From the IMG/VR virus record IMGVR_UViG_3300010885_005800, positions 1-41,666 of that record: a stretch of 41,666 bases of DNA, one strand, 5' to 3'. The notes beneath the pieces are model-generated. The model searched no databases. It had not been told where the DNA came from and saw only the letters and a program-made list of their open reading frames with translations. A program made the translations under genes and the position numbers. The stretch is from a virus. Positions 9,848-26,419 of the stretch are shown here, one piece after another; position 1 is the first letter of the stretch, and every line of letters begins with the position of its first letter.

Positions 9848-11237
9848 ACAGCTAGAGGATACAGCTAAGAAAGCTGGTCCAGTACAAGCTGAGGTCGCCG
9901 TTAAAGTAGCCAAATGGTTATTATCTAGACATGATTATCAAAAACTACCTGAGGGTGATTGGTGGAACATCTGGCTATTCCTTGCTGGTCGTGGAGCTGG
10001 AAAGACTAGGACAGCAGCCGAGAATCTATGGCAAATGGCATGGAGACAGCCGAAAACCAGATGGTTGGTTTCTGCTCCAACTTACGCCGACGTTAAAGAC
10101 GTCTGCTTCCTTGGGGAAAGTGGGCTCATCAACGTCATGCCTAGAAGCATTGTCCTCAAGCACACCGTAAGCGACAACGAGATCCATTTAACCAATGGGT
10201 CAATCATTAAGGGAATAGCGGCTTCTGAGCCTGAGCGCTTTCGTGGACCCCAGTTTCATGGTGGCTGGCTAGATGAATTGGCGGCGTGGGAATACCTTGA
10301 TGAAGCATGGAACATGATCCAGTTCGGTATGCGTCTAGGTCAGCGTCCTATCCTGATCTGCACCACTACTCCTAAGCCTAAGCCACTGATCTTTGATCTG
10401 ATGAACCGAGACGGTGATGATGTGATCGTTACTACAGCGACTACCTATGACAACTTAGAGAACTTGGCGCCCACCTTTAAGAACCAGATCCTGCAATACG
10501 AGGGTACGACTCTTGGCAGGCAAGAGATTTACGCTGAGATCATCGATCCAGAAGAGCAAGGCATCATTAAGCGCCAGATGTTCAAGCTCTGGGATTCAGA
10601 GAAGCCATTGCCTAAGTTCCAGTACGTTATCCAGTCGTATGATTGCGCTACGTCCGACAAGACTAAGAACGATCCTACAGCTTGCGTGGTGCTAGGTGCA
10701 TTTAAGCCATCAGACGACAAGCCAATGGCTGTGATGGTGATTGATTGCTGGTCAGAGCACATGCAATATCCAGACCTGCGTCCACGAGTGATTGAGGAGT
10801 CAACCTCGATCTATGGTGATGAGAACGAATGGGGTCATGGCAAGAAGGTAGACATGATCCTTGTGGAGGACAAGTCGGCAGGCATTAGTCTTATACAAGA
10901 CTTGCAACGTGCTGGGCTAAACGTCCGTGCATACAATCCCGGTAATACCGACAAGATCGGGCGCCTAAACATTGTCTCGCCCATCATTGCTAAAGGATTG
11001 GTCTATCTGCCAGAGTCAAGCACCAATGAAGGACAGGTAAGAGACTGGTGTCAAGAGTTCGTCAATCAGGTATGCGCTTTCCCAGAAGTAAGGCATGATG
11101 ACTACGTTGACGCCTTAACCCAAGGCTTACGTTTAATGCGTGACATGGGTTTACTAACCGTGGATTATCTGTACAATGACAATGACTTGTATGTCGATGA
11201 GACGCAACCCAAGCGAGTGAACCCTTATGCCGTATGA
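9825..11237 (+). CDS. terL: Terminase large subunit
   Basis: In 470 aa, the ATPase domain has Walker A GRGAGKT (55-61) and Walker B GGWLDE (146-151) with the catalytic Glu, plus TTTPKPKPL (181-189) as the coupling motif. The RNase H-like nuclease domain has acidic residues at YDC (D273), LVEDKSAG (E348/D349) and HDDYVDAL (D425/D426/D429). The protein pumps DNA into proheads and cuts the concatemer. The length is normal. It overlaps the upstream gene and, by 11 nt, the giant protein gene downstream. Confidence 0.95.
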   Translation: MTVQDIVRQLEDTAKKAGPVQAEVAVKVAKWLLSRHDYQKLPEGDWWNIWLFLAGRGAGKTRTAAENLWQMAWRQPKTRWLVSAPTYADVKDVCFLGESGLINVMPRSIVLKHTVSDNEIHLTNGSIIKGIAASEPERFRGPQFHGGWLDELAAWEYLDEAWNMIQFGMRLGQRPILICTTTPKPKPLIFDLMNRDGDDVIVTTATTYDNLENLAPTFKNQILQYEGTTLGRQEIYAEIIDPEEQGIIKRQMFKLWDSEKPLPKFQYVIQSYDCATSDKTKNDPTACVVLGAFKPSDDKPMAVMVIDCWSEHMQYPDLRPRVIEESTSIYGDENEWGHGKKVDMILVEDKSAGISLIQDLQRAGLNVRAYNPGNTDKIGRLNIVSPIIAKGLVYLPESSTNEGQVRDWCQEFVNQVCAFPEVRHDDYVDALTQGLRLMRDMGLLTVDYLYNDNDLYVDETQPKRVNPYAV

Positions 11238-14200
11238 CGAGCTAGGCAATTATATCCAAGGCGATGAGCCTAGCGTTGACCAGATGAAATATGCTCTGGC
11301 TCAAAGAGGATCGATGCCCCTCCGCAACGGATCAGACGTTCCCTATCTTGCTTCAGAAGTTCCATCGATTAGTGTGCCAGCTCAATCAAAAGCTCCGCCA
11401 CGCCCTGCATCAAGTGCCACCAATATCGTACAAGCCTTAGCCGATAAGTTCGGCATTACTGCTATACCGCAATCCATTCTATCCATGGCATCAGGTCTTA
11501 CATCTATCCCTGTCAGTAGTGCTTACGGAGTCTACAAAGGCGTAACCTCACCTAACTTTGGTACTCAAGCTGGTGTGGAAGAGGGAAGACAAGCTTCTGA
11601 GCGTTTACAGCAAGCCATGACTTATGAGCCTACATCGCAAGCGAGCAAAGACATCAATGAAAGCTTGGCAAAAGCTCTTGAAGCTTCCAAGTTGCCCCCA
11701 TATATTGGTGGCATACCGAGAGCTCGTCCGATCCTGACACCCAATGATGTCCGTGTGATGGGCGCCAATGCCAAGCGTGTTGCTGGTGAGGTAGGTGACA
11801 TCAAAGCTGATTTTGTTAATGCCCAGTCTGGTATCCGCCGTGAAAACGTGTTCGGTGAGCCAACACTAGGCGTCAAAGCGCAGGGGGCTGTTGAATCAGT
11901 CGCCCCTGTTATCTATCCTAAGATCGAGCAGTTCATGGAAAACATCGGTGGCTTAAAGCGCATCGACGTAGGGCAAAAAGCCAAGAACTACAGTAAGGCG
12001 TCTGAAGAGATATTCAAGCGTGAGTTCACAACAGCTCGCAGGGCAGGTCAGTCTGTAGACGAAGCTAACATCACTGCATGGAAAGCTAGCCAACTTGACG
12101 ATGTGCCTGAAGGCGCACCGGGTAGCCTTGGAACTCGCTATCTACCCATGACTGATAGGCTAGTTCAAGAATCTATGCTCGGTGAATTAGAGTTCGAGCC
12201 TAAGGCAACTCCACGTAGAAGCGCTCCCAAAGACTTACTCAAGACAGCGGATGCGTTGTCTATGGAAAACTTTGGCACAACATTTGATAATCTGACCCCA
12301 GAACAGAAGGTTCAGTTGCGTGACTATGCGTTGGCATTGCGAACGGTTGGTAAGTCAGCCAATTTACCCGCAGCCCTTGAAGCCTACCCAGAGCTGGCTG
12401 GCTATCGTTACGAGTACACCCCAACTAGAAGCAAGATCGCTGGTGGTTTTGGCAGACAATCCAAGTCTATAACCGTTGAGTCACCTAAGCGTGAGGCTGC
12501 AGGATCAACCATTCATGAGCTGACCCATGCAATCCAAGAAATTGAAGGATTGCCACAGGGTGCCAACACAGCCATGTTCGATCTGACCACAGCTCAGGGT
12601 CGTAAGTATCAAAAGTATGTTGGTGAGCTTCAAGACGAGAAAGAAGCTTTGTTCCATGCAGGCTTTATACAAAAGAAGGCAAACGAGTTTGGAATTCCTC
12701 TAGACGAATACATCAAACAGAACAATGCAGAGATAGATAGCTTGTTCCAAAAAGAGAAAAAAAGCATTACCTCTCGTGAAGCGAACGTCCTAAACCGTAT
12801 GGACGAGTTGGCATTGAAACATACGCCAGAAGAGCTTGAAGCCATGATGAAGGATCTGCAATCAAAGATTGATAAGAATCCACGCAATCCATTCTACGCC
12901 TACAAACAAGTATTTGGCGAAGCTCACGCTCGAAATGCTGAACGTAGAAGCAAGATCCCGTTCAATCTCAGACGTGAGATATTCCCTGAAAGCACATTAG
13001 ATGTTCCAAGGTCAGAGCTACGCTATAGCGATGTTCAGGCAGAAGGACCAGACTTACAGCTCAAGGTAGACGAGAAGCCTAAGCGCCAATCCAAAGCAGA
13101 AGCAGAAGCGTTAGGTCTATACCATCCAGTCGGTGGAGGCGTAAAGCTTAAGCGCCCAATCAGTGAGATGGACATCCAGACAATGGATAACCCAGACATG
13201 CCACTCAAGCCTCGCAAGGAGCTAAGCCCAGAAGAGATGGTTGGAGGCGCAATCATTCCACTTAGCATGGATCTATCAAGCGCAGGCAAGATCATTACAG
13301 GTGTGGGCGGTAAAGAGCTGATCGTCCCAGTCAAAACACAAGGTGGTTATCAATTCATGCAATGGAACGGAGACTCATGGTCATCACTACCAAACGTGTC
13401 TAAACGTATTGGCAACCAGATCCAAACAGCTAGAGAGATGGAAGGCGTAGATCCAGACAAGATATTTGGCGTCACTAAGACAATGTCTCCAACCGCCGTA
13501 GACTTTAACCACATGACCACGGAAGTGCTCCTGAACCAGTTCGATCCGACTACTATTCCGAAGCCTATTGCTAAATCATTCAATACCTTAGTGCGTGATC
13601 AAGGCGTTAAGAATCAAAAGACTGGCGTTATTAACTATCCGTTCAAAACCTTTGAAGGCATCGAGACACCAGAAGGTCGTGCTCAACTGCTAGAGATTTC
13701 TAACTGGGGTGGCGAGCTTCGTAAGAACATGATTAACAAGATGAGCCTCAAAGACTTCAGGGAGGCTGGCTTTCCAGACGTAGCAGAAGCAAGAGCTGCG
13801 GTTAGCGCACCTGAACTTTTAGATCAACCTATCGGAATGATAGGTCATGGCATTACACGATTTGATCCGTCAGGCGAGTTAAACCTTGATCCAGCAGATC
13901 CGCATTATACCTACACCGCTAACATCAAAGGGCATCCAACGATGGGTGCATATGCTGGTGCATTCAAGACGCCCGTCAGTAATGAAGTGGCATTCAAACC
14001 TTATTTTGATGAACGTCGTGCATTAAACAGGCTTCAGTCTGCAGATGATCGTGCATTCACAATGAGCATGCCTATCCAGAAGACTAATCAAGAGTGGCTT
14101 GATACCGTCATGGCTGAGATGGATGCTCAAGACAGAGCCATCAAAGAAGGCTTGACGATGGATGAAGCACGTCTTGCCATCATGCGTAAGGAAGAAGAGC

Positions 14201-16740
14201 CTAAACAGTTGTCACCTAAAGATGATGTTGGCTTCTATTCCAATGTACAGAAGGCTGCCTTAAACCTTAAGCGTCAGTCTGGCAACGGTCAAGCTTACAT
14301 GAACGATATTAAGAAGCAAGCTGGCGTACATAGTGATGAGCTAGAAGCTATGGGTTTGCCTGAGTTCCTAGACTCTAAGAAATCATTCACAACTAAAGAA
14401 GTTCAAGATTTTATTCGTAAGAACAGGCTCAGGATAACTCAAACAAACTTTAGTGAATCTGGGCAAGACTACCAAGATAACTTGATTGCTAAGATACTAA
14501 ATGAGCAAGGGTTTGATTTTGAGCATGCTCCTAGAGATGTCATTAATGAAGCCACAGTTAAAGCAAGACAAATAATGAGGGAAAAACGAGCTAACGGCAC
14601 GTTGATGGAATATGACGATCCAGACAATCCTGCAGAGAACAAAGTGCTTTACGGTCCTGACGAGTACGAAGAGTACATGACACCGGGCGGTAGAAACTAT
14701 CGTGAACTGATATTGCAATCCCCTAAAAAGGCTTCAATCAAGGTAGAAGCTCCAGATGTAGAAGGGGCAACTCTTAAGAAAAAGCAAGAGGCAGGCAATA
14801 GAGTAAGCGCAATCATCTACGACAAAGATGGCAATGAGATTGGTTCAGTCTATAACCTTATGCCAAGTGGATCAGATAAAAATGATATTGAAACATGGGC
14901 TCAGAATCAGAAGCACTTAAAACAAAAAGAAGCTGATAGCACCATGAAGTTTACTGATGGTCATTACAACGCATATCCCAATACATTGTTGAACTTGCGC
15001 CTTCAAGACTTCTTTGACGTTGAAGGCAAAAAAGGTACATTGATAGACGAGCTTCAGTCTGACTGGCATCAAAAGGGCAGGGATAAAGGCTATTACAAAC
15101 AACCTGCAAACATTCCCAAAGCGCCTAAGGTTACAGGTCAGATGATGACTGTCAAAGAGTTTGCTGATAAAGCTGGCATCGATGTGAATGAATATGTCGC
15201 CCATAGAAATGCAATGCAACAAGATTTAGGTCATCCGTTGATTGATGCGGATTCTAAGTTGGCTGTTTTGTTAGATAACGATAAGCCTGCTGTAGCTAGG
15301 ATTGCCATGAGAAGCAATGGGCATGAGATCTCTGAAGAGCGTTTAGCCAAGATGGTAAAAGATCGGCAGCATGGCGCAAACAAGATAGCTCAAGACGCCT
15401 TACAGAGATCGTTCATAGAAGCTAACGCAAGCGGTAAGGTTGCTGACGCTCCATACAAAGAACGCTGGCATGAGCTTGGTATCAAGAAAGCTGTGCTAGA
15501 AGGCATCAAGCGTGGTGACGATAGGATCTATTTGCCAGTAGGAAAAGATGTTTCAGATCGTTATGACTTGAGTAAGCAAGTGAAAGAGCTAACCTACGCA
15601 AACAAAAAAAATGGAAATTTCTTAATCAATGCCTTAGATAATAATGGTAGACCAGCCATAGTTAAAGAAGTTACTGAAAAAGAATTGCCTGATTTGGTAG
15701 GTAAAGACTTAGCAAACAAAATAATTGCCGATTCCAAAGTCAATCTGTTTGGCAATACATATTCAGGGTTAGACTTAAAGGTTGGTGGCGAAGGTATGAA
15801 AAAGTACTACGACGAAGTTTATCCAGCCGTGCTTAAGAAGCTTGCCAAGCAATACGGCGGTAAGTTCGGAGAGACTGAGATTGAAGTTGGCAATCCAGTG
15901 TTTCATGTAATTGATCAAAGCGGAAATAGGCTTACAGCCAGTGGTTTTGTTGGTCAAGAGCATGCAATAAAAAGTCTTGAAAAAGGAATTAGTAAAGGTG
16001 AGTTTCCTGAAAATTCAACTATTGAACAGGTAAACAACACTCGTAAGGTTCGCTACTACGAGCCAAGCGATGAAGCCAAGATTAAGATCCAAGGCGGTAT
16101 TGCCATGAAGGATGGTGGCGCAGTTCACATGCGTGAAGGCGGTATCAACTTACCAGAAATGGATTATCAAGAAGAGCGTAAGCCTTTTATACCGCCTGCA
16201 ATGGTGTTGCCATATAGCGGTCAAGGCACGACTGGCGCCCGTATCATGAAGGGCATTCCCATTAGCAACAAGGGCGCCATTAATCTAATGGCTGACATAG
16301 CGCATTCCCAGACTGGCTCTGGCACAAACTACAACGTGCGTGAAGCTGGTATAGGCTACTCACATAAAGTAGGTCCGGGCTATTTAGGTGGAAACATCTC
16401 GCATCGCCCCGATTCAAAAGAGAACCGCTTTGGTTTGATGTACGCTATTCCAATGGCAGAAGGCGGTAAACCACTGACTCCCTATGAGCAATTTAAGATC
16501 CAGCATGAAGAGATGATCCGCCAAGGCAAGGAAGATATTGCCAATCGAAACAAGTATGATCCGTACAAAGGAAGCGGTAAACCCGTTCCTACTACTCGCT
16601 CATCTGGATCTGCAGGCATAGTGCCTAGCATTGAACCATCTGGTAGTGGTAGCCCTAGCTTATTAAATCCATTGAACCGTAAGAACGGTGGCGATGTAAA
16701 CTTAGATGCAATGCGCTATGCGCTCACGAAAGGTAAATGA
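11227..16740 (+). CDS. Giant polyvalent protein with HELTH metallopeptidase motif and GG-motif tail
   Basis: The 1837-aa protein lies between TerL and the portal. Residues about 420-450 contain STIHELTHAIQEIEG, with HELTH at 430-434, the zinc-binding HExxH motif of metallopeptidases. Long helical and mixed segments follow that resemble the large polyvalent protein-associated domains of phages and conjugative elements (for example GTLIDELQSDWHQKGRDKGY near residue 1274). The last 210 residues carry the motifs MKDGGAV (1627), MREGGI, MAEGGKP (1743) and RKNGGDV (about 1818), and end DAMRYALTKGK, echoing the N-terminal DQMKYALAQRG (19-29). It may be packaged and injected, or act in head maturation. 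No processing site is proven. Confidence 0.8.
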   Translation: MPYDELGNYIQGDEPSVDQMKYALAQRGSMPLRNGSDVPYLASEVPSISVPAQSKAPPRPASSATNIVQALADKFGITAIPQSILSMASGLTSIPVSSAYGVYKGVTSPNFGTQAGVEEGRQASERLQQAMTYEPTSQASKDINESLAKALEASKLPPYIGGIPRARPILTPNDVRVMGANAKRVAGEVGDIKADFVNAQSGIRRENVFGEPTLGVKAQGAVESVAPVIYPKIEQFMENIGGLKRIDVGQKAKNYSKASEEIFKREFTTARRAGQSVDEANITAWKASQLDDVPEGAPGSLGTRYLPMTDRLVQESMLGELEFEPKATPRRSAPKDLLKTADALSMENFGTTFDNLTPEQKVQLRDYALALRTVGKSANLPAALEAYPELAGYRYEYTPTRSKIAGGFGRQSKSITVESPKREAAGSTIHELTHAIQEIEGLPQGANTAMFDLTTAQGRKYQKYVGELQDEKEALFHAGFIQKKANEFGIPLDEYIKQNNAEIDSLFQKEKKSITSREANVLNRMDELALKHTPEELEAMMKDLQSKIDKNPRNPFYAYKQVFGEAHARNAERRSKIPFNLRREIFPESTLDVPRSELRYSDVQAEGPDLQLKVDEKPKRQSKAEAEALGLYHPVGGGVKLKRPISEMDIQTMDNPDMPLKPRKELSPEEMVGGAIIPLSMDLSSAGKIITGVGGKELIVPVKTQGGYQFMQWNGDSWSSLPNVSKRIGNQIQTAREMEGVDPDKIFGVTKTMSPTAVDFNHMTTEVLLNQFDPTTIPKPIAKSFNTLVRDQGVKNQKTGVINYPFKTFEGIETPEGRAQLLEISNWGGELRKNMINKMSLKDFREAGFPDVAEARAAVSAPELLDQPIGMIGHGITRFDPSGELNLDPADPHYTYTANIKGHPTMGAYAGAFKTPVSNEVAFKPYFDERRALNRLQSADDRAFTMSMPIQKTNQEWLDTVMAEMDAQDRAIKEGLTMDEARLAIMRKEEEPKQLSPKDDVGFYSNVQKAALNLKRQSGNGQAYMNDIKKQAGVHSDELEAMGLPEFLDSKKSFTTKEVQDFIRKNRLRITQTNFSESGQDYQDNLIAKILNEQGFDFEHAPRDVINEATVKARQIMREKRANGTLMEYDDPDNPAENKVLYGPDEYEEYMTPGGRNYRELILQSPKKASIKVEAPDVEGATLKKKQEAGNRVSAIIYDKDGNEIGSVYNLMPSGSDKNDIETWAQNQKHLKQKEADSTMKFTDGHYNAYPNTLLNLRLQDFFDVEGKKGTLIDELQSDWHQKGRDKGYYKQPANIPKAPKVTGQMMTVKEFADKAGIDVNEYVAHRNAMQQDLGHPLIDADSKLAVLLDNDKPAVARIAMRSNGHEISEERLAKMVKDRQHGANKIAQDALQRSFIEANASGKVADAPYKERWHELGIKKAVLEGIKRGDDRIYLPVGKDVSDRYDLSKQVKELTYANKKNGNFLINALDNNGRPAIVKEVTEKELPDLVGKDLANKIIADSKVNLFGNTYSGLDLKVGGEGMKKYYDEVYPAVLKKLAKQYGGKFGETEIEVGNPVFHVIDQSGNRLTASGFVGQEHAIKSLEKGISKGEFPENSTIEQVNNTRKVRYYEPSDEAKIKIQGGIAMKDGGAVHMREGGINLPEMDYQEERKPFIPPAMVLPYSGQGTTGARIMKGIPISNKGAINLMADIAHSQTGSGTNYNVREAGIGYSHKVGPGYLGGNISHRPDSKENRFGLMYAIPMAEGGKPLTPYEQFKIQHEEMIRQGKEDIANRNKYDPYKGSGKPVPTTRSSGSAGIVPSIEPSGSGSPSLLNPLNRKNGGDVNLDAMRYALTKGK

Positions 16741-19280
16741 TGGCGGAGATGCCCATTCCACAAGATTACGACAGATACGTTGACCCAATTTCAGGTGAGC
16801 AAGAGGAGGAAATGTCCGATGAATCCCTGATGGAGATTCTGGATCAAGACGAATCAGATGTAGAAGAGTTGCCTGATGGCTCAGCCATTGTTCGTTTAGA
16901 TAACCTTAAAGGACCTGACGATACCCCTGATTTCTATGAGAACCTAGCTGACAAGTTAAAAGAATGGGATCTTGAAAACATTGCCTTAAAGTACCTTGAC
17001 CTGATTGATAAGGACAAGGAAGCTCGTGAAGACAGAGATAAGCAGTACGAAGATGGCTTACGCCGTACTGGATTAGGTAATGATGCTCCCGGTGGGGCTC
17101 AGTTTATGGGTGCTTCTAAGGTAGTTCACCCTGTTATGGCTGAAGCTTGCGTTGATTTCGCAGCTCGTGCTATCAAAGAACTATTCCCACCAAACGGTCC
17201 CGTCCGTACCAAGATCATTGGAGAGTCATCCGAAGAGAAGGTTGAAAAGGCTGACCGTAAGCGTGACTTCATGAACTGGCAGTTAACAGAGCAAATCGAA
17301 GAGTACCGTGATGAGCAAGAGCAGATGCTTACCCAGCTCCCATTAGGTGGCTCACAGTACATGAAAATCTGGTATGACGAGTCTAAAAAGCGCCCATGCG
17401 CTGAGTTTGTACCAATTGATAACATCTATTTGCCATTCTCTGCAGGTAACTTCTACACCGCAATGCGTGTTACAGAGGTTCAAGACATCACCGAAGAGGA
17501 ATATGAGCTCCGTGTAGAGACAGGTTTATACCGTGATCTGTACACCAGCATGCTTACCCAAGAGCCTGACCAGACTAAACCTGAAAAAGCCAACGATAAG
17601 ATCGAAGGACGTAAGAGTTCAGGCTCAAACGTGGATGGAATCCGTCGAGTATTTCACATTCAGACATGGCTATCCCTAGAAGATGACAAGTTTTCCAAGG
17701 GTGATCGTGCTCCATACATCTTGATGATTGATGAAAACGAGCAAAAGCCTGTTGGTTTGTATCGTAACTGGGAGAATGGCGATGAGATGTGTACCAAGCT
17801 TGACCACATCATTGAATTTAAGTTCATTCCTTGGAGGGGTGCTTACGCTATTGGTCTTCCTCACCTTATTGGTGGTCTTAGCGCCGCCCTTACTGGTACT
17901 CTCCGTGCTCTATTGGACGCTGCACATATCAATAATGCGCCTACGATGCTTAAGCTCAAGGGTGCGAAGATGTCTGGACAGTCGACGACTGTTGAAATCA
18001 CTCAAATCTCAGAGATAGAAGGCGCCCCCGGAGTCGATGACATCCGCAAGATTGCAATGCCAATGCCATTTAATGCGCCAAGCCCTGTTCTATTCCAGTT
18101 ATTAGGCTGGTTAACAGACGCTGCCAAGGGAGTTGTCACAACTTCTGAGGAAAAGATTGCTAATGCCAACAACAATATGCCTGTTGGTACAGCTCAAGCG
18201 TTGATTGAACAAGGAGCTGTGGTTTATTCCTCGATTCACGCTCGTTTGCATGACAGTCAACGCCGTGTATTCAAGGTTTTAGGTCGTATTAACCGTTGGT
18301 ATCTTGATGAACAGCAAAAAGGTGAGATTGTTGCTGATCTTCCTATCACTACTGAAGACTTTAAGAGCAACTCTGACATTATTCCTGTCTCTGATCCCAA
18401 TATCTTTGCAGAATCACAGCGTTACGCTCAGATTCAAACATTGGCGGCTCGTGCTCAAGCCAATCCTGACCTGTACAACCGTATTGCTGTAGAGAAACGC
18501 ATCCTAGAACAGATCAAGTTGCCAGAGATCGGTGAAGTATTGCCTGATCCACAAGATGTTAAGGACATGAACCCTGCACTTGAGAACGTGGCAATGACTT
18601 TAGGTAAGCCTGTGGGCGCATTCCCAAGCCAAGATCAGTTATCGCACCTGCTAACCCATCTGCAGTACGCTTTAGATCCGTTATATGGCTCTAATCCAAT
18701 CATGGCGCCCACATTTATTCCTGCATGTTTAGAGCACATCAAGCAACACTTAACGCTATGGTATCTAAACCAAGCTGATACCTACACTAGCGTTTCTTTA
18801 GGTCGTCCGTTTAACGTATTGAAGGTTCAACCGATGATCCAAGAAGCTCAAAAGCTATTGGCGGCTTCTGCTATGCACGTTCACCAAGACGCCAAGCAGA
18901 CAATTGCTCCAGAGGTTATGCCTGCCATCCAGCAAATGCTTGGCATGCTCCAGCAGATGAAGCAAACCAATATGCCTCCTGCGTCTCCAGACGTGATGGC
19001 TCAGGTTAACGCCCTTACTCAAACAGCAATGGCAGAAACACAACGCCGTGCTGAGAAAGATCAGGCAGAAACCTATATTGATTCACAGCGCCTCGCCCAA
19101 GACAAGCTTATTGAGACTCAGCGCCTGCAGTTAGAAGCGGCTGAGAACACAGAAGACAACTTGGTTAAAGAGCGCATGCAGACAGCAGAATTAACGCAGG
19201 ACGCAATACGGTTGCAAAATGAGCAAGTGCAAACCGCTTTGAAAGCTCAAAAAGAACTTCAATCCAAATTAGGAGAGTAA
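16737..19280 (+). CDS. Portal protein (P22-like)
   Basis: The 847-aa protein has the typical acidic N-terminus, then a stem/wing-like core (GAQFMGASKVVHPVMAEACV, ELFPPNGPVRTKIIG, LPLGGSQYMKIWYD, and a TGTLRALLDAAHINN helix) that matches large portals of P22-like and marine podophages. It ends with a long Gln-rich helical C-terminus (from about 690) consistent with a barrel domain. It forms the dodecameric DNA gate at one capsid vertex. Its ATG overlaps the previous stop (ATGA). The identification is strong from pattern, length and position after TerL. Confidence 0.92.
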   Translation: MMAEMPIPQDYDRYVDPISGEQEEEMSDESLMEILDQDESDVEELPDGSAIVRLDNLKGPDDTPDFYENLADKLKEWDLENIALKYLDLIDKDKEAREDRDKQYEDGLRRTGLGNDAPGGAQFMGASKVVHPVMAEACVDFAARAIKELFPPNGPVRTKIIGESSEEKVEKADRKRDFMNWQLTEQIEEYRDEQEQMLTQLPLGGSQYMKIWYDESKKRPCAEFVPIDNIYLPFSAGNFYTAMRVTEVQDITEEEYELRVETGLYRDLYTSMLTQEPDQTKPEKANDKIEGRKSSGSNVDGIRRVFHIQTWLSLEDDKFSKGDRAPYILMIDENEQKPVGLYRNWENGDEMCTKLDHIIEFKFIPWRGAYAIGLPHLIGGLSAALTGTLRALLDAAHINNAPTMLKLKGAKMSGQSTTVEITQISEIEGAPGVDDIRKIAMPMPFNAPSPVLFQLLGWLTDAAKGVVTTSEEKIANANNNMPVGTAQALIEQGAVVYSSIHARLHDSQRRVFKVLGRINRWYLDEQQKGEIVADLPITTEDFKSNSDIIPVSDPNIFAESQRYAQIQTLAARAQANPDLYNRIAVEKRILEQIKLPEIGEVLPDPQDVKDMNPALENVAMTLGKPVGAFPSQDQLSHLLTHLQYALDPLYGSNPIMAPTFIPACLEHIKQHLTLWYLNQADTYTSVSLGRPFNVLKVQPMIQEAQKLLAASAMHVHQDAKQTIAPEVMPAIQQMLGMLQQMKQTNMPPASPDVMAQVNALTQTAMAETQRRAEKDQAETYIDSQRLAQDKLIETQRLQLEAAENTEDNLVKERMQTAELTQDAIRLQNEQVQTALKAQKELQSKLGE

Positions 19281-19282
19281 AA

Positions 19283-19561
19283 ATGACTGAAGCAATTAAC
19301 GCCCATAAGAAGATGGCTATGGGAATCACAGAAGGTAATGTGATGAAAAAGGGTGGCAAGGTACGCAAGTACGCTAATGGCGGTGCAGTGGCTGAATCAA
19401 AGGTCGCTAATCTTCCAGCTATGGGTGACAAGCGCAATACAGGCGTTGACTTTAACGCTGGTAAAGCCAAAATAGCAAGTTTGAAAAAGGGCGGTATGGC
19501 TAAGTCTGGAATCATGATTGCAATCGGAATCCCAAAAAGGGCAGCAGGTAGAGGTCGTTAA
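19283..19561 (+). CDS. Small basic GG-motif protein
   Basis: A 92-aa protein starting 2 nt after the portal stop with AGGAG upstream. It contains MKKGGKV (21-27), ANGGAV (31-36) and LKKGGMAK (67-74), the same Lys-x-Gly-Gly motif seen in the giant protein and in two proteins downstream of the capsid. It is strongly basic with no transmembrane segment and is probably disordered. Its position points to a head-associated minor protein or assembly factor. Confidence 0.75.
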   Translation: MTEAINAHKKMAMGITEGNVMKKGGKVRKYANGGAVAESKVANLPAMGDKRNTGVDFNAGKAKIASLKKGGMAKSGIMIAIGIPKRAAGRGR

Positions 19562-19750
19562 TTGAATCTAATTAATGATTTGATTACCCGTATCAAGCAG
19601 TCAAAGCAAGGCATCGCTGAGGCTATGGTAAATGGAAATTGTCACAATTTCGAAAGTTATCAGCGCTTGGTAGGGCAGAGTATAGGCTTGCAAGAAGCTT
19701 TGCAAATAATTGAAACATTACTTAAAGAGGAAGAAAATGTCGAGTATTGA
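19562..19750 (+). CDS. 62-aa helical protein (TTG start)
   Basis: TTG 19562 immediately follows the previous stop, with AGAGG upstream. The product (MNLINDLITRIKQSKQGIAE, then a C-terminal IETLLKEEENVEY) is fully helical, resembling short head-region proteins found beside portals. It overlaps the co-chaperonin start. Its function is unknown. Confidence 0.6.
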   Translation: MNLINDLITRIKQSKQGIAEAMVNGNCHNFESYQRLVGQSIGLQEALQIIETLLKEEENVEY

Positions 19751-20162
19751 CATTGAACAAACGCTGTTAGAGGCGTTTCCAGAAGTAGATCCATTGATGG
19801 CTCCGTATGGAGCAAGGGTTCTCGTTCAAATGAGAGCTGTTAAAGAAAGGATTACCGACGCAGGGTTATTGCTACCTGAAGAGACTAGAGAAGCTGAAAA
19901 GTGGAACACTATGATTGGCAAGGTGATCGCTATAGGTCCTTTAGCTTTTAAGAAGCGTGACACGATGGAACCATGGCCCGAAGGGTCTTGGGCGTCAGAA
20001 GGTGATTATGTTCGTGTGCCAAAGTGGGGCGGAGATCGCTGGGAAATTGACTTTGAAGATGCTAATGGTGCTAAGGGACATGCTTTATTTACGTTCTTTA
20101 ACGACCATGAGTTAATCGGTAAAGTCACTGGAGATCCGAGAGCCATTAAAGCATTTATCTAG
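19737..20162 (+). CDS. GroES-like co-chaperonin
   Basis: From ATG 19737 (Shine-Dalgarno AAAGAGGAAG) the 141-aa product matches the Cpn10 fold. PYGARVLVQMRAVKERITDA (23-42) corresponds to the GroES N-terminal strand. AGLLLPEET (42-50) sits where the mobile loop's IVL tripeptide contacts GroEL. GKVIAIGPLAF (61-71), SEGDYVRVPKWGG (87-99) and the final ELIGKV (125-130) follow the family order. No GroEL is encoded here, so it would work with the host chaperonin, as T4 gp31 does for its capsid protein. Its place just upstream of the scaffold and capsid genes fits that role. Confidence 0.85.
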   Translation: MSSIDIEQTLLEAFPEVDPLMAPYGARVLVQMRAVKERITDAGLLLPEETREAEKWNTMIGKVIAIGPLAFKKRDTMEPWPEGSWASEGDYVRVPKWGGDRWEIDFEDANGAKGHALFTFFNDHELIGKVTGDPRAIKAFI

Positions 20163-20181
20163 GTTTTGAAAGGAAAACTGT

Positions 20182-21171
20182 ATGAATCCAACCGATAAAA
20201 TGGAAATGCAGGTCGCTGAAGAGCAAGACGGTTCTGCCGTTATTCAGTTGCCTGAAGGTGAGCAATCACCACAACAAGAAGATTTGCCAACCGAACCAAC
20301 TCAAGATGCGTCTGATGACGAAGGCGATGATGGTGATGATGGCAATCAAAGCAGTAACGATGACGAGCGTGAAAAGATTCGTGAAGCTCGTCGAGAAGAG
20401 CGCAAGCTCAAGAAACAAATTCATCGTGAAAAGGCTCGTGAGTCTAATCATTTAATTGTTGCTCTGCAAAAACGCAATGCAGAAATGGCTGAGCGCCTTG
20501 CAATCATTGAGAAGAAAACCTCTGGTGCAGAACTTGCACGAGTGGATAAGGCTATCGAAGATGCTGGTGTGCAGGTTGAATATGCCAAGATGCAAATGCA
20601 GGAAGCTGTATCTGCAGGAGATGGCGTATCTCTGACTCGTGCTCAAGAGCAATGGTTTGAAGCTAAGCGTCGGATGGAGTCTTTGCAAAATGTTAAGCAA
20701 CAGGCTACTCGTCAGATGTCTCAGCCTAGACAAAACATTCAAGCTCCTGATCCAGAAGTTCAAAGATTAGCGGCTGATTGGATGGAACGTAATACTTGGT
20801 ATGACCCAAATGGTCGTAACGAAGATTCGCAAATCGCCCAGCTTATTGACAAAAAATTAACCGAAGAAGGATTTGATCCGAGCTCGGAAGATTATTGGGA
20901 TGAGCTTGACGAAAGATTGAAAAAAAGAATGCCCGAAATGCAAAATCGTGCTTATAATGATTCACATGTCCGTAATCAAAGACCGAGGTCTGTTGTGACG
21001 AGTTCAGGAAGAGAAACTACTGCTACTACTAAGTCTAATGAATTTAGACTTACGCCTGACCGTGTTTCAGCCATGAAAGAAGCTGGGCTCTGGGATAATA
21101 TCGAGCTCCGCAAAAAAGCAATTAGCAACTATGTTAATTGGGATCGTGCAAACAAATCGAGGACTTCATAA
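20182..21171 (+). CDS. Scaffold protein
   Basis: In 329 aa, the N-terminal 70 residues are extremely acidic (DASDDEGDDGDDGNQSSNDD). A long coiled coil follows (about 70-190, EKIREARREERKLKKQIHRE onward), and the C-terminal region is basic. This is the classical scaffold layout: an acidic/disordered end, a helical rod, and a basic end that docks on capsid subunits. It precedes the decoration and capsid genes and follows the portal and co-chaperonin. The stop overlaps the next ATG (TAATG). Confidence 0.8.
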   Translation: MNPTDKMEMQVAEEQDGSAVIQLPEGEQSPQQEDLPTEPTQDASDDEGDDGDDGNQSSNDDEREKIREARREERKLKKQIHREKARESNHLIVALQKRNAEMAERLAIIEKKTSGAELARVDKAIEDAGVQVEYAKMQMQEAVSAGDGVSLTRAQEQWFEAKRRMESLQNVKQQATRQMSQPRQNIQAPDPEVQRLAADWMERNTWYDPNGRNEDSQIAQLIDKKLTEEGFDPSSEDYWDELDERLKKRMPEMQNRAYNDSHVRNQRPRSVVTSSGRETTATTKSNEFRLTPDRVSAMKEAGLWDNIELRKKAISNYVNWDRANKSRTS

Positions 21172-21701
21172 TGGATAACCGTTTAAAGAAAAATACCACT
21201 TCAGGGCGTGAAAGTCGTGCATCTAGCGATTTAGAAAGACGTCCTCCTGAAGAACAAACTGCAACATCGCAGGAACGTCGTAGTATGTTCCGTTCGGAAT
21301 GGCTTCAAGAAGCGCTTCCGACCCCCCCTGCTATTCAGGGATTCCACCTATGCTGGCTATCTACAACGAACCAGTACGACCCTATTCATAAGCGTTTGCG
21401 TATGGGATACATGCCTGTAAAAGCCGAGGAGTTAGCTGGCTTTGACAACTACAGGGTTAAATCCGGCGAACATGAAGGTTTTGTAGCTTGTAATGAAATG
21501 TTGTTATATAAACTTCCCGAAGATATATACCAAGAAATCATGACAGAGCTACATCACAATGCCCCACTTGAAGAGCAGGATAAGATCCGCATTCAGCAGG
21601 AGCAACTTCTTGGCGCAAAAGACAGTAGTGGGCGTCGTCTGGCAACTGTTGAAGGTGAAGGCATAGATTTTGACCGAACTGTAAAAGCGCCTACTTTCTA
21701 A
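21171..21701 (+). CDS. Head-region hypothetical protein
   Basis: ATG 21171 overlaps the scaffold stop and has GAGGA upstream, so it is preferred over the longer frame from 21138. The 176-aa product has a charged disordered N-terminus (RPPEEQTATSQERRSM) and a globular core (FHLCWLSTTNQYDPIHKRLR, ELAGFDNYRVKSGEHEGF). Such proteins occur between scaffold and capsid in podophages; none has a function I can name. Its stop lies inside a terminator-like hairpin. Confidence 0.65.
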   Translation: MDNRLKKNTTSGRESRASSDLERRPPEEQTATSQERRSMFRSEWLQEALPTPPAIQGFHLCWLSTTNQYDPIHKRLRMGYMPVKAEELAGFDNYRVKSGEHEGFVACNEMLLYKLPEDIYQEIMTELHHNAPLEEQDKIRIQQEQLLGAKDSSGRRLATVEGEGIDFDRTVKAPTF

Positions 21702-21713
21702 GTAGCGTTTTTT
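21688..21713 (+). terminator. Terminator-like hairpin overlapping a stop codon
   Basis: CTACTT (21691-21696) pairs with AAGTAG (21700-21705), extended by two outer pairs across a one-base bulge, and is followed by six T. The stop codon of the upstream gene lies in the loop and right arm. Only 15 nt separate the T-run from the next ATG, so there is no room for a promoter. It may be a partial attenuator or a processing site rather than a full stop. Confidence 0.6.
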
Positions 21714-21728
21714 AAAAAGGAGTTAACT

Positions 21729-22319
21729 ATGTCTGCAACAAATGCTCCGTTTGGTATGCGCCCAGCTTACTTTCCAACTGGGTTGGAACGTGCTCAAGCG
21801 CTTGCTAACGGAATCACTTCGGGCTATGCCTCGAATATCCTAAAAGGTCAGCCTGTTGTCTATGGAACTACCGCTAACGGTGGAACTTTAGGCACAATCA
21901 TTCCAGCAGCAACGACTGGCGCCATTACTGGTGCTTTCGCTGGTGTTGAATGGACTGACACAACTGGTCGTCGTCGTGTTTCTAACTACTGGCCCGCCAG
22001 TACGACTGGAACTCAGGTTGTTGCTTATTTCTACAACGACTTAAACATCGTTTATGAAATTCAATCTGATGCAACGATGGCTCAAACGTCTATTGGTAAC
22101 GAATTTAACTTCAGCAACATTACCGCTGGATCTACAACTACTGGCTTGTCACAATGCACCCTTGGTGTATCAACAGCGGCTGGTAGCGGTAATCAAGCGC
22201 AAATGCGTGTAGTTGACCTCGCTCCCTACCCAGACAATGCATGGGGGGACGCTTACGTTATTGTTCGTGTCCAGATTTCTAACTCGCAATTCTTCGGTGC
22301 AGTCACCGCTATTGCTTAA
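21729..22319 (+). CDS. Capsid decoration/stabilisation protein
   Basis: A 196-aa, Thr/Ala/Gly-rich, beta-rich protein starting MSATNAPFGMRPAYFPTGLE with an AAAAAGGAG Shine-Dalgarno. It sits immediately upstream of the capsid gene, as head-decoration proteins often do in this phage type, and the NAPFGMRPxY opening is typical of that family. It should bind the capsid exterior, stabilising packaged heads. Confidence 0.75.
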   Translation: MSATNAPFGMRPAYFPTGLERAQALANGITSGYASNILKGQPVVYGTTANGGTLGTIIPAATTGAITGAFAGVEWTDTTGRRRVSNYWPASTTGTQVVAYFYNDLNIVYEIQSDATMAQTSIGNEFNFSNITAGSTTTGLSQCTLGVSTAAGSGNQAQMRVVDLAPYPDNAWGDAYVIVRVQISNSQFFGAVTAIA

Positions 22320-22335
22320 TCAAGGAGACTGACAA

Positions 22336-23250
22336 ATGGCAGCCCCAATGAGAAGTACAGACTTCCGATCAATTGTTGAGCCAATCCTCAACGAATCATT
22401 TGACGGAGTTTATGACCAAAGAGCTGACGAATGGAGCACTGTGTTCCGTGAGCAAGCTGGTATTCCCCGTAACTACCATGAAGAACCTGTTTTGTATGGT
22501 TTTGGAGCAGCGCCTCAGTTACCTGATGGCTCACCTGTTTCTTACCAACAAGGTGGTGTGCTCTTCTTGCAACGCTATATCTACAACGTATATGGCTTGG
22601 CATTTGCTTTAACCAAAGTATTGGTTGAAGACGGTGACCATATCCGTATCGGTCAGGTATACGCTAAGCATTTAGCACAATCTTTAGTAGAAACTAAGGA
22701 AACCTTATGCGCTAACGTACTTAACCGTGCGTTTAACAGTGCATATGCTGGCGGTGATGGAGTAGCATTAAACTCCAACGCACATCCAATCGTTAACGGC
22801 ACATTCAGCAACTTGCTGACTACCGCCGCAAACTTGAGCCAAACCTCCCTTGAACAGATGCTGATTCAGATCCGTCAAGCTGTTGACAACAACGGCAAGA
22901 AGATCCGTCTGCAACCTGTCAAGCTGGTAGTCGCTCCGGGCAATGTGTTCCAAGCTGAAGTGCTTTTGAAGAGCGTTCTGCGTACTGGTACAGCGAACAA
23001 CGACATCAACCCAATTAAATCAATTGGTTTGTTGCCTGAAGGCGCATCAGTAATCAGCCGTTTGACAAACGCATCCAACTGGTGGGTTCAAACAGATGCA
23101 CCAGAAGGTATGAAGCTGTTAATGCGTCGTGCATTAGAGAAGACTATGGAAGGTGACTTCGAGACTGACTCTATGCGCTATAAGGCAACTGAGCGTTATG
23201 CGGTGGGCTTTACTGACCCTCGTGCAATGTTCGGAACACCGGGCGTTTAA
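22336..23250 (+). CDS. Major capsid protein
   Basis: The 304-aa protein begins MAAPMRSTDFRSIVEPILNE and has the long-helix plus beta-rich composition of an HK97-fold coat protein. Characteristic stretches are LAFALTKVLVEDGDH (spine-helix region), VKLVVAPGNVFQAEVLL and a C-terminal DSMRYKATERYAVGFTDPRA typical of phage capsids. It has a strong AAGGAG Shine-Dalgarno and is followed by a strong terminator. The scaffold, co-chaperonin and decoration genes upstream agree with this role. Confidence 0.88.
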   Translation: MAAPMRSTDFRSIVEPILNESFDGVYDQRADEWSTVFREQAGIPRNYHEEPVLYGFGAAPQLPDGSPVSYQQGGVLFLQRYIYNVYGLAFALTKVLVEDGDHIRIGQVYAKHLAQSLVETKETLCANVLNRAFNSAYAGGDGVALNSNAHPIVNGTFSNLLTTAANLSQTSLEQMLIQIRQAVDNNGKKIRLQPVKLVVAPGNVFQAEVLLKSVLRTGTANNDINPIKSIGLLPEGASVISRLTNASNWWVQTDAPEGMKLLMRRALEKTMEGDFETDSMRYKATERYAVGFTDPRAMFGTPGV

Positions 23251-23259
23251 TGAAGTGCA

Positions 23260-23290
23260 GGGCTGGTTTAACCGCCAGCCCTTTTAATTT
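23260..23290 (+). terminator. Rho-independent terminator after the capsid gene
   Basis: GGGCTGG pairs with CCAGCCC around an 8-nt loop, followed by TTTTAATTT. It lies ten nucleotides after the capsid stop. The next gene starts only 35 nt beyond the T-run, so some readthrough is expected. Confidence 0.9.
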
Positions 23291-23324
23291 AATCAATGTC
23301 TAAGCTTTTCAAGGAGAAAGACAA

Positions 23325-24572
23325 ATGCCACAATATTCAGATGACTTATTTTTAGGCTCAGCCCAGACGTACATGGGTACGGGCTTGCGTAACTACTCTA
23401 CTACCGCAATCGGTGGTACTGGTAGCGTTTCTTCCACAACACTGACAATCACTTCTGTGGGCTTTGGCGCTCCAATCGTGGTTGGTATGTTTGTTGATGG
23501 TGCTGGCGTTACTGACGGTACTTATATCACTGCCTTTGGCACTGGTACTGGTGGCGCTGGTACATACACCCTCAATCAAGCAATCAATATCGCAAACACT
23601 GTTGCGTTGACATTACATGACTTAGAGGCTTTTGATAATCCATCACCAATGAGCATTGGTGTTGGCCCATTGGGTCGCATCTATGTGTGGGATGTTGTTC
23701 CTCAAGCTGCCGTGGCAAACAATATTGCTACGTCGCAAACTCCTGTAGCCGCTGGTTCATTGACCTTAACGGCTGGAACCAGCGTGAAGTCAATTATCAC
23801 AATCGCAGGTACTACCGCTTTCTCGCTTGATGTTCCTCGTGGCGTTAGCGTGACAACCGCAACTGCCGCAGCTTCAACATTGTCTAGCGTTGTAATTGCA
23901 GGCACTGGTGGTCAAATCACCTTTACCTCGCAATCAGGTTTGGTAACTGGTCAGCGTTTGACTATCTCTGGCACTTTGGGTGGCACAGGTACCATTACTG
24001 GCTACACCAACCCAACGACCTACATCCTGACCGCTGTGACAGCAACTTCTGCAACTTTGACTACTACAGCAGGCGCAGCAGTCGTAACCACTGCAGGTAC
24101 ACCAACAGGTTTGACTTACACCTTGGGTGTTGCTCCTGTGACGGTTACCGTGTCTGGTTTTGACATTTATGGTCAAGCGATGAGCGAAGCAATCACTTCT
24201 AGCGCCTCTGTTAGCACTGCTGTAAGTGGTTTGAAAGCCTTCTACCTTGTTACTTCTGTGACGGTAAGTGGTGCTACTGGTACTGCTCTGACTGTTGGCA
24301 CAACCAACGTGTTGGGTTGTCCAGTTCGTGTTCCTAACATTGCTTATGTGGCAAGCGTTAAGAGCAACAACGCTTTGGCGCAAGATGGCGGTACTTTTAT
24401 TGCCGCTGATACTGCAACTGCTACGACCACCACTGGTGACGTTCGTGGTACATACACCCCTGCTACCGCATCAAATGGCACCGTACGCACAGTAGTAGGA
24501 ATCTTGTTGCCAGCAATTGCCGTAGGTCCAAATGCAACCCGTGTTGGCGCCCTTGGCGTTACACAAGCCTAA
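23325..24572 (+). CDS. Beta-rich virion surface or fibre protein
   Basis: A 415-aa, Thr/Gly/Ala/Val-rich protein with repetitive Ig-like or beta-strand segments (SSTTLTITSVGFGAPIVVGM, ATTYILTAVTAT-like runs) after an N-terminus MPQYSDDLFLGSAQTYMGTG. Its location right after the capsid gene suggests a head fibre or decoration protein, though a tail-associated role is possible. It has no enzymatic motif. The Shine-Dalgarno is AAGGAGAAAG. Confidence 0.65.
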   Translation: MPQYSDDLFLGSAQTYMGTGLRNYSTTAIGGTGSVSSTTLTITSVGFGAPIVVGMFVDGAGVTDGTYITAFGTGTGGAGTYTLNQAINIANTVALTLHDLEAFDNPSPMSIGVGPLGRIYVWDVVPQAAVANNIATSQTPVAAGSLTLTAGTSVKSIITIAGTTAFSLDVPRGVSVTTATAAASTLSSVVIAGTGGQITFTSQSGLVTGQRLTISGTLGGTGTITGYTNPTTYILTAVTATSATLTTTAGAAVVTTAGTPTGLTYTLGVAPVTVTVSGFDIYGQAMSEAITSSASVSTAVSGLKAFYLVTSVTVSGATGTALTVGTTNVLGCPVRVPNIAYVASVKSNNALAQDGGTFIAADTATATTTTGDVRGTYTPATASNGTVRTVVGILLPAIAVGPNATRVGALGVTQA

Positions 24573-24584
24573 TAGGAGAACATA

Positions 24585-25403
24585 ATGGCTACAAAATTTA
24601 TGCGTGAGCCCAAGATGTTCACCACCGAGCCTTCAGTTGATGAAGTCGGTAAGGGTATGAAAAAGGGTGGTAAAGCTAAGAAGATGCAGTATGGAGGAGT
24701 AATGGTTCCTCCTATTGATCGTCCTGCTATGGCTCCTGCTGTACGTCCTATGGGTCGTCGTGCTCCTATGGCAATGCCTACAGCTCGTATGCCAATGCGT
24801 AAGAATGGTGGAAGCATTGACAACGAGAAAGATGAAATCAAACGTGTTGAAAAAGAGCTGATGCATCATGAATCTATGAGAGCTAGTAAGGCTCATAAAG
24901 GCATGAAGTCTGGTGGCGCACCTAAGGCTGGTCCTAATGTAATTGGTGGTTTAGCTGGCGGTTTGGAGGCTACTCGTGCTAATAGCAAAAAGACTACTGG
25001 TGGTGTAAGAGCTCCCGGTTATAAATCTGGTGGCTCTTTAGGCGCTAAGATGGATGCATTTGCAACAAAAACTACCTTGAAACCAAAGATTGATATTAAT
25101 GACAAAGTGGTTGGCATGAAGCAAACCAAGAGTTTTAATACCAAAACTGGTGGCGTAAAGAATACTACCGCTAATGGTGGCGCTGCAGGCTACAAGCGTG
25201 GTGGTTCAATCGCTTCTAAAGGTATGGCAATTGCTAAGAAGTACATGACTAAAACCAACACTGGCAATCCAATGCCAACTGTAAAAGGCGGAACTAAAGG
25301 CATTAAACAAGCTCCTGCTGGATACAAAGATGGTGGTCACGTTGCTATGACATGTAAGAGTACTGGTGGCTTTGCTACCATGAAAAAGATGGCTAAGTGC
25401 TAA
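24585..25403 (+). CDS. Basic GG-motif repeat protein
   Basis: The 272-aa Lys/Gly/Met-rich protein is probably disordered. GG motifs occur as MKKGGKA (25-31), YGGVM (36-40), MRKNGGSI (71-78), MKSGGAP (107-113), GYKSGGSL (145-152), GYKRGGSI (202-209) and GYKDGGHV (246-253), with additional TGG and KGG spacers. The three GYKxGG units define imperfect repeats of about 50 residues. It is preceded by AGGAG. A cluster of Pro/Met/Arg (about 43-71) divides the protein. It may be a minor virion or assembly protein; no known enzyme domain is visible. Confidence 0.75.
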   Translation: MATKFMREPKMFTTEPSVDEVGKGMKKGGKAKKMQYGGVMVPPIDRPAMAPAVRPMGRRAPMAMPTARMPMRKNGGSIDNEKDEIKRVEKELMHHESMRASKAHKGMKSGGAPKAGPNVIGGLAGGLEATRANSKKTTGGVRAPGYKSGGSLGAKMDAFATKTTLKPKIDINDKVVGMKQTKSFNTKTGGVKNTTANGGAAGYKRGGSIASKGMAIAKKYMTKTNTGNPMPTVKGGTKGIKQAPAGYKDGGHVAMTCKSTGGFATMKKMAKC

Positions 25404-25411
25404 AACTGGTT

Positions 25412-25431
25412 GGGTGGGGGAAACCTCACCC
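25412..25431 (+). promoter_or_regulatory. Stable hairpin with GAAA tetraloop in an intergenic leader
   Basis: Eight base pairs (GGGTGGGG against CCTCACCC, one G-T wobble) close a GAAA loop, a GNRA-type tetraloop. It lies between the GG-repeat gene and the next ATG. There is no clean T-run (TTCTCTTACTT follows), so RNA processing, stability or weak termination are all possible. Confidence 0.6.
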
Positions 25432-25452
25432 TTCTCTTACTTCGGAGATTTT

Positions 25453-25737
25453 ATGAGTACATTAACTAATGTATTTTCGGCGCATGCTGATGCTACTGGC
25501 ACAATTTACGCTGGTGCTACAAACCTTGCTGGGTATCAACTATTGACTGGCGGTACTGCTGGTGAAATTGTATTTCGTGATGGTGGTTCATCTGGTACTG
25601 TTCGCTTAAAGGTTAATATTGCTGCTACGCCAACCAATCCATTTTCAACTTTGATACCGGGAAATGGTATTCGTTTTTCAACGAATATTCATGTGACATT
25701 GCCAACAAGCGCTGCTGTAACAATTTTCTGCGGTTAA
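25453..25737 (+). CDS. Small beta-rich phage structural protein
   Basis: ATG 25453 is preceded by CGGAG. The 94-aa product (MSTLTNVFSAHADATGTIYA) continues with FRDGGSSGTVRLKVNI, IPGNGIRFSTNIHVTL and the end VTIFCG, a pattern common in short all-beta virion proteins of marine and freshwater phages. An upstream in-frame ATG at 25414 falls inside the hairpin and lacks a Shine-Dalgarno. It is likely a head or tail accessory protein. Confidence 0.7.
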   Translation: MSTLTNVFSAHADATGTIYAGATNLAGYQLLTGGTAGEIVFRDGGSSGTVRLKVNIAATPTNPFSTLIPGNGIRFSTNIHVTLPTSAAVTIFCG

Positions 25738-25738
25738 T

Positions 25739-26419
25739 ATGCCAAGCAAGTCTAAGGCTCAGCACAACTTGATGCAAGCCGCAGCTCACACTAAGGGTGG
25801 GTTTGGTGGCGTTCCGCAAAAAGTTGGCAAAGAATTTGTCAAAGCTGACAAAAATATGAATGATGGTGGCGTTGTTAAATCTTTGAAAAAGTCTGGGTTT
25901 TATGAAGCAGGTAAAACGAAGTCAGAGAGAGAAAAGATTGTTAGCAAAGTAACAACCAAACCCCAACGAATAGCAATGGTTGAGAAATTATTCTCATCTA
26001 AAAAAATGGCTTCTGGTGGACTTTATGAAAATATTCATAAAAAGCAAGAACGTATTGCGTCTGGCTCTGGTGAGAGAATGCGTAAAGTTGGCTCTGAAGG
26101 TGCGCCTACTAAAGAGGCGTTTATCCAATCAGCTAAAACTGCCAAGATGAAAGATGGCGGTGACGTATCATTAGCAGTTGGTCGTGGTGAGAAATTATCT
26201 ACCAAGGCTGGTGCTGGACTGACCGCTAAAGGTAGGGCAAAATACAATAGAGAAACAGGCAGTCATTTAAAGGCGCCTGCTCCGAGTCCTAAAACAAAAA
26301 AGGATGAAGGACGTAAAAAGTCTTTCTGTGCTCGGATGGCAGGAGTAGTTCATAAATCAAGTGGAGATGCGCCTAGAGCTAAGGCGTCGTTAAAGAGATG
26401 GAAATGCCCCGGCTGGTAA
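25739..26419 (+). CDS. Modular GG-motif protein with DUF6321-like C-terminus
   Basis: In 226 aa, four modules are separated by GG motifs. Residues 1-38 (MPSKSKAQHNLMQAAAHTKG onward) are of the short SKAQxxxM type. MNDGGVV (40-46) precedes a helical segment to about 88. KMASGGL (89-95) opens a module with HKKQERIASGSGERMRKVGS. MKDGGDV (137-143) opens the C-terminal module GLTAKGRAKYNRETGSHLKA, RKKSFCARMAG and KRWKCPGW, matching DUF6321. From memory, several of these modules occur as separate small proteins in other phages, so this looks like a fusion. It is highly basic; the function is unknown. Confidence 0.75.
   Translation: MPSKSKAQHNLMQAAAHTKGGFGGVPQKVGKEFVKADKNMNDGGVVKSLKKSGFYEAGKTKSEREKIVSKVTTKPQRIAMVEKLFSSKKMASGGLYENIHKKQERIASGSGERMRKVGSEGAPTKEAFIQSAKTAKMKDGGDVSLAVGRGEKLSTKAGAGLTAKGRAKYNRETGSHLKAPAPSPKTKKDEGRKKSFCARMAGVVHKSSGDAPRAKASLKRWKCPGW

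Follow-up and report, generated by a model that had tools for sequence, protein, structure and literature searches.

A Gly-Gly motif shared by unrelated head-block proteins of an uncultivated water phage: a candidate docking tag

Short boxes centred on a Gly-Gly (GG) pair mark four proteins encoded by an uncultivated phage, IMG/VR virus record IMGVR_UViG_3300010885_005800. All 41,666 nucleotides of the record were analyzed, and are called here the window. The phage is tailed, and encodes an Sf6-like small terminase, a Terminase_6 large subunit and a GroES-like chaperonin. The portal matches phrog_1216, and the major capsid protein (MCP) is of the Phage_capsid_4 type. Relatives of the portal are found in a Manatee Spring contig (54% identity), Caulobacter phage RW (46%), Roseobacter phages CRP-901/902 (35%), Pelagibacter phages HTVC027P/023P (32%), and DSL-LC04 (31%). 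The proteins marked by the motif measure 1837, 92, 272 and 226 amino acids (aa), and are listed in Table 1. The motifs quoted from them in a first-pass annotation, made from the sequence alone, are all present where they had been placed; RKNGGSI, GYKSGGSL, GYKRGGSI and GYKDGGHV, for example, reside in the 272-aa protein.

Table 1. Motif-bearing proteins of the window, with the location of GG and helix boxes
Feature	Position	Strand	Remarks
1837-aa large polyvalent-type protein, between terminase and portal	11227..16740	+	no Pfam hit of its own; grouped relatives with ART-PolyVal, LPD23, GH108
Helix box VDQMKYAL, N-terminal, aa 17-24	11275..11298	+	same box at aa 15-58 in ~20 relatives
Tandem MKDGGAVH MREGGINL, aa 1627-1642	16105..16152	+	
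MAEGGKPL, aa 1743-1750	16453..16476	+	
Putative C-terminal tag RKNGGDVN-LDAMRYAL-TKGK, aa 1818-1837	16678..16737	+	54/57 family C-termini with GGx[VI]
92-aa small basic protein after portal, three copies (aa 21, 30, 67)	19283..19561	+	118 vs 9.4 expected in family
MKKGGKV (aa 21) and YANGGAV, 92-aa protein	19343..19393	+	
272-aa repeat protein after capsid genes, copies at aa 25, 34, 107, 146, 203, 247 plus variants	24585..25403	+	6 vs 0.73 expected (window)
226-aa mosaic of small modules (phrog_16759, phrog_16028, DUF6321)	25739..26419	+	
MNDGGVVK, end of first module, 226-aa protein	25856..25879	+	
MASGGLYE, start of GLYxNI module (phrog_16028), 226-aa protein	26006..26029	+	
MKDGGDVS, DUF6321 boundary, 226-aa protein	26147..26170	+	GG invariant in 22 homologues

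The motif occurs above chance in the four window proteins, according to a comparison with shuffled sequence. When GG pairs are kept and the rest of each protein is shuffled, 12 copies of [MYF]xxGGx[VILMAP] are observed against 1.98 expected, a result matched in 0 of 3000 shuffles; the remaining open reading frames (ORFs) of the window hold 3 copies, against 5.6 expected from GG-preserving shuffles. The excess stems from the 272-, 92- and 226-aa proteins. With 2 copies against 0.9 expected, the 1837-aa protein falls short of significance when taken alone, whereas its family across relatives is significantly enriched. Relatives were sampled from 80 IMG/VR loci and annotated phage records, in which genes were called mechanically, and all family counts refer to 86 related loci plus the window. 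Observed and expected copies are 232 and 43 for the 1837-aa family, 118 and 9.4 for the 92-aa family (all 58 members carry the motif), 163 and 24 for the 272-aa family, 26 and 3.8 for the 226-aa family. Enrichment across relatives is 5-12 fold, and limited to the same four families. No enrichment was detected in terminases (1 observed, 6 expected), portals (6 and 20), GroES (1 and 5), and a 748-aa fibre-like family (0 and 9), nor in the scaffold of the related loci.

The motif had been originally defined as Lys/Met-x-Gly-Gly. The GG pair holds, but Lys is not a defining residue, and the consensus is better described as [M/Y/F]-[A/K]-x-G-G-x-V, with an aromatic residue or Met in position -3, Ala or Lys in position -2, and Val in second position after GG. 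The residue immediately after GG is free. Motifs are often arranged in tandem, with a period of 8 residues. Just before GG, basic residues outnumber acidic ones in the 92- and 272-aa families, and the reverse holds in the 1837- and 226-aa families, which argues that the motif does not merely mirror a Lys/Gly composition. Chance occurrence in Lys/Gly-rich sequence is ruled out by the GG-preserving shuffles and by the spacing-control scans reported below. Free positions are basic in the 92- and 272-aa families, but in the polyvalent family they are less often occupied by basic residues than by acidic or neutral ones; a Lys/Gly composition required for DNA binding is therefore disfavoured as the sole cause. 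The SYQQGGVLF site of the MCP was also considered as a tag, and rejected as probably a position of the fold: in the window MCP (22336-23250) and its 55 relatives YQQGGVLF resembles the motif, but occurs at one position only, fixed in 50 of 55 MCPs. No description of the motif was found by literature searches restricted to open-access papers.

The first-pass annotation suggested checking for a preference for virion genes. Ten long related contigs were compared, their head and tail blocks being delimited by distance from the terminase gene rather than by annotation. Motifs are concentrated in the head block (106 against 32 expected), with 9 against 26 in the tail block and 15 against 19 elsewhere. 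The tandem DNA pattern [FY]AxGGxVxMAxGG marks at least 120 stretches in IMG/VR, and a control pattern made by the same tokens at altered spacing marks none. Eighty of the listed stretches were fetched. All lie in open frames of at least 149 codons, and sort into several unrelated clusters (28 of polyvalent type, 22 including tape-measure-like proteins, 8, 4, plus pairs and singletons). In contrast, bacterial and archaeal genomes (257 billion bases) yielded 6 matches. Only one looks genuine, and resides in a 5.8-kb contig of a metagenome-assembled genome, in a protein the end of which resembles a viral protein of locus L159. The motif is therefore nearly confined to viruses.

The gene for the 1837-aa protein adjoins packaging and portal genes, as do those of phage polyvalent proteins. 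Among its relatives, the protein of L021 carries ART-PolyVal and GH108 domains, that of L069 an LPD23 domain. Of the 57 distinct complete C-termini of the family, 54 have GGx[VI] within the last 32 residues, against 5.3% of other 32-aa windows. GG is followed in the polyvalent family by a second element, the amphipathic helix box [LIV]DxM[RK]x[AE]L, which occurs N-terminally, between domains and C-terminally. At the C-terminus, GG and helix box together read GGxV-[LI]DxM[RK]xxL. Counts of a looser form of the box in the 1837-aa family are 53 C-terminal, 21 near the N-terminus and 24 internal; other families have almost none. Both termini of the window protein feature the box (aa 17-24 and 1826-1833). 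The joined GG and helix-box pattern marks 59 IMG/VR stretches, against 3 for a spacing control, and one of the control matches is itself a true site. Joined elements lie at most 35 aa from the C-terminus at 39 of 60 sites; the others are mostly internal, typically GGQVDMDRMRLELMN. None of 61 motifs in 13 polyvalent-type proteins falls within a Pfam envelope, against 4.2 expected. An AlphaFold model of the 1837-aa C-terminus, of low confidence, is folded to about residue 143 of 357, and continues in a mostly disordered tail where the LDAMRYAL box forms a short helix. Predicted template modelling scores of the AlphaFold models obtained for the 226-aa protein and for this C-terminus (0.33 and 0.30) are too weak for fold searches.

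In relatives of the 226-aa protein modules are exchanged, and the GG pair is constant at the DUF6321 boundary. KMASGGL, noticed earlier, is present in this protein, but cannot be viewed as a free linker, as it belongs to the start of the phrog_16028 (GLYxNI) module. In Pelagibacter phage HTVC201P GLYxNI and DUF6321 are two separate small ORFs located between scaffold and capsid genes, and lack the motif. The N-terminal module (25739-25860) shares 64% identity over 39 aa with PHIKZ165.1 of phiKZ (L210, 4001-4177). In the low-confidence AlphaFold model of the 226-aa protein the three GG sites are at or beside segments between helices with a predicted local distance difference test score (pLDDT) <50. 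PDB sequence searches with the MCP, the 226-aa protein and a 176-aa head protein returned nothing usable, and the cryo-EM paper on phage P-SCSP1u contains nothing on the small modules of that phage. A GLYxNI head-type module is found also in the 39-kb genome of Limnohabitans phage DC33 (L211, PQ492659.1), which is filed under Inoviridae; this taxonomy line looks wrong.

Small proteins carry up to nine motif copies. Tandem and multi-copy arrangements would suit motifs sticking to one another, so that cargo and multi-copy small proteins form a common prohead core, and the motif is indeed common to presumed cargo and not enriched in portal, scaffold and GroES. This explanation is weakened by the conserved C-terminal helix box, which suggests a specific partner, and we consider it quite improbable.

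Motifs are found at module borders, as maintained in the first-pass annotation, and at domain joints. They lie outside Pfam domains, at sites predicted with low confidence to be disordered. In several loci the large protein is split in two ORFs, and a GG box (the variant KHGGAVH in L064) ends the upstream one. When split ORFs were compared to fused relatives, the aligned end of L062 (844 + 1246 aa) was found at aa 815 of L054, which has motifs at 806 and 814; the joint of L069 (1286 + 778 aa) falls near 1011-1014 in L057, with motifs at 1008 and 1016; the aligned end of L058 (583 aa, C-terminal YATGGKVK) is at 547 in L059, with a motif at 541. No clean joint was seen in the remaining split/fused pairs compared, and no motif at the joint when split ORFs were aligned to the window 1837-aa protein. 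The bodies of the tagged proteins are largely dissimilar. Among 55 non-redundant proteins, similarity is undetectable (E > 0.01) for 1293 of 1485 pairs over the 300 aa preceding the tag, and for 777 of 1485 across the whole body.

The location at domain joints would also be expected of a protease site. A cut at GG would then free the polyvalent domains and the 226-aa protein modules, either as the head matures or after injection. Certain viral proteases, such as those of adenovirus and African swine fever virus, use GG-x sites. The 1837-aa protein features a zincin-like HELTH at aa 430, and P1 DdrB is processed prior to packaging (PMC5512222). However, the motif is retained at the free C-termini of stand-alone proteins, is repeated 8 aa apart in tandem copies, up to nine in small proteins, and conserves Val two residues after GG, the residue immediately after GG being free. 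Moreover, none of the head genes scanned with Pfam matched a peptidase family, an absence which is a weak sign. Cleavage is thus weakened, and decidedly unlikely. A flexible GG spacer, marking points of domain shuffling and binding nothing, would fit with the low pLDDT at the sites, their location outside domains and the swapping of modules around the motif, but hardly with the strict spacing of the aromatic/Met residue, GG and Val across free residues, the conserved adjoining helix box, and the presence at free C-termini. Being similarly weakened, this alternative is unlikely. Where a protein stands alone, neither a linker nor a cleavage joint is of any use at its free end, whereas a docking tag is, and motifs at the free ends of stand-alone ORFs therefore favour the latter. 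Of the options originally proposed, docking tag is the one fitting best; cleavage signal and linker lose ground for the free C-termini, the tandem 8-mers and the helix box, and docking to the inner membrane found no support in this analysis.

According to the evidence gathered here, the motif may be regarded, with somewhat more confidence than doubt, as a short docking tag, transferable among proteins, that marks those loaded into the phage head, and unrelated tagged proteins are probably packed into the head of this water phage. The reading is based on enrichment in four families only, concentration in the head block, near-absence from cells and spacing controls, as on the C-terminal position, the helix box, the dissimilar bodies and the joints of fused relatives. 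It takes also into account the location of motifs outside Pfam domains, the predicted disorder, the parallel with CRP-902 described below, and the argument from genomic context for packaging of phage polyvalent proteins (PMC5512222). Loading, receptor and location in the virion are what we infer from these data. During prohead assembly the tag would bind a common partner, which might be the inner capsid surface, the portal or a scaffold core, and each tagged domain would be packaged along with DNA, to be ejected later and act in the host. Three small basic head-block proteins, carrying multiple copies, could work as multivalent bridges from the partner to DNA or cargo.

A different terminal tag seems to be used in a related phage. 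In the portal-GroES slot of Roseobacter phage CRP-902 (L003, 7550-12801), the portal of which is homologous to that of the window, four proteins of 436, 248, 178 and 513 aa have in common little more than an N-terminal peptide of ~17-38 aa (MANPVKGAI..LGE.VID). The peptide looks like another tag with the same presumed purpose. Four large ORFs span the region from portal to GroES also in L275 (MW202675.1, 9773-18435); two of them end alike (KALALTRSFTKR, RALSLTSRYTARHDRDAG), which may represent a third type of tag.

The capsid-targeting sequence of T4, an N-terminal peptide of ~10 aa, can encapsidate virtually any attached protein (PMC7697877). The tag proposed here is likewise a short terminal peptide common to different proteins presumed to be in the head, but is mainly C-terminal or inter-domain, and features an internal GG box. 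A head maturation protease, by which T4-type sequences are removed, was not seen among the Pfam-scanned head genes. Encapsulin cargo-loading peptides are short, reside at either end of the cargo, and steer it into a shell of HK97 fold (PMC7355545). The phage tag is similarly short and terminal, but its carrier is a tailed phage, the motif is repeated also within proteins, and binding to the shell is putative. Capsid packaging of phage polyvalent proteins has been argued from genomic context by Iyer et al. 2017 (PMC5512222). Relatives of the 1837-aa protein resemble these proteins in their domains, as do tandem-motif proteins found elsewhere, which bear PcfJ, ART-PolyVal, PBECR5, LPD23 and InPase. 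The word glycine is absent from the text of PMC5512222, and neither the GG tag nor the DxMR helix box is mentioned in the passages considered. None of the four proteins has a Pfam match to the stress-induced KGG repeat (PF10685) with E ≤ 0.1. Unlike double-glycine (C39) leaders the motif is internal or C-terminal, and no C39 match was found among the scanned window proteins.

Some observations weigh against a docking tag. Homologues in the family counts are not independent samples. The C-termini of L010 and L014 lack the terminal tag, though L014 retains the N-terminal helix box. In tape-measure-like proteins (L285, L289, L291, L293, L300, L303, and L277 at 12884-15163) the GG motif directly precedes a DGQSDxIPAxLADGEYVF domain, and may hence play a wider structural role. 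These proteins share a YAKGGQV-type motif, but differ as it lies ~100 aa before the C-terminus and is tied to one conserved domain. The window showed no such tape-measure-like gene, and may stop short of it. Among the tail genes of the window, a 175-aa protein (35715-36242) looks by eye like an HNH-type endonuclease (CxxC ... DHDHKTGxVRGLLCxxCN).

The route by which large effector proteins enter phage heads is an open question beyond T4 and a few other models. A tag readable in sequence, if true, would list packaged and injected proteins, such as ADP-ribosyltransferases, nucleases and lysozymes, for thousands of uncultured phages. That many uncultivated tailed phages mark each packaged protein or domain by combining an aromatic-Ala-x-Gly-Gly-x-Val box and a terminal helix specific to the lineage is conceivable, but doubtful at present. 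Were such a general code true, the injected arsenal of a phage could be read straight from its sequence and, if portable, the tag could be used for loading proteins into phage capsids.

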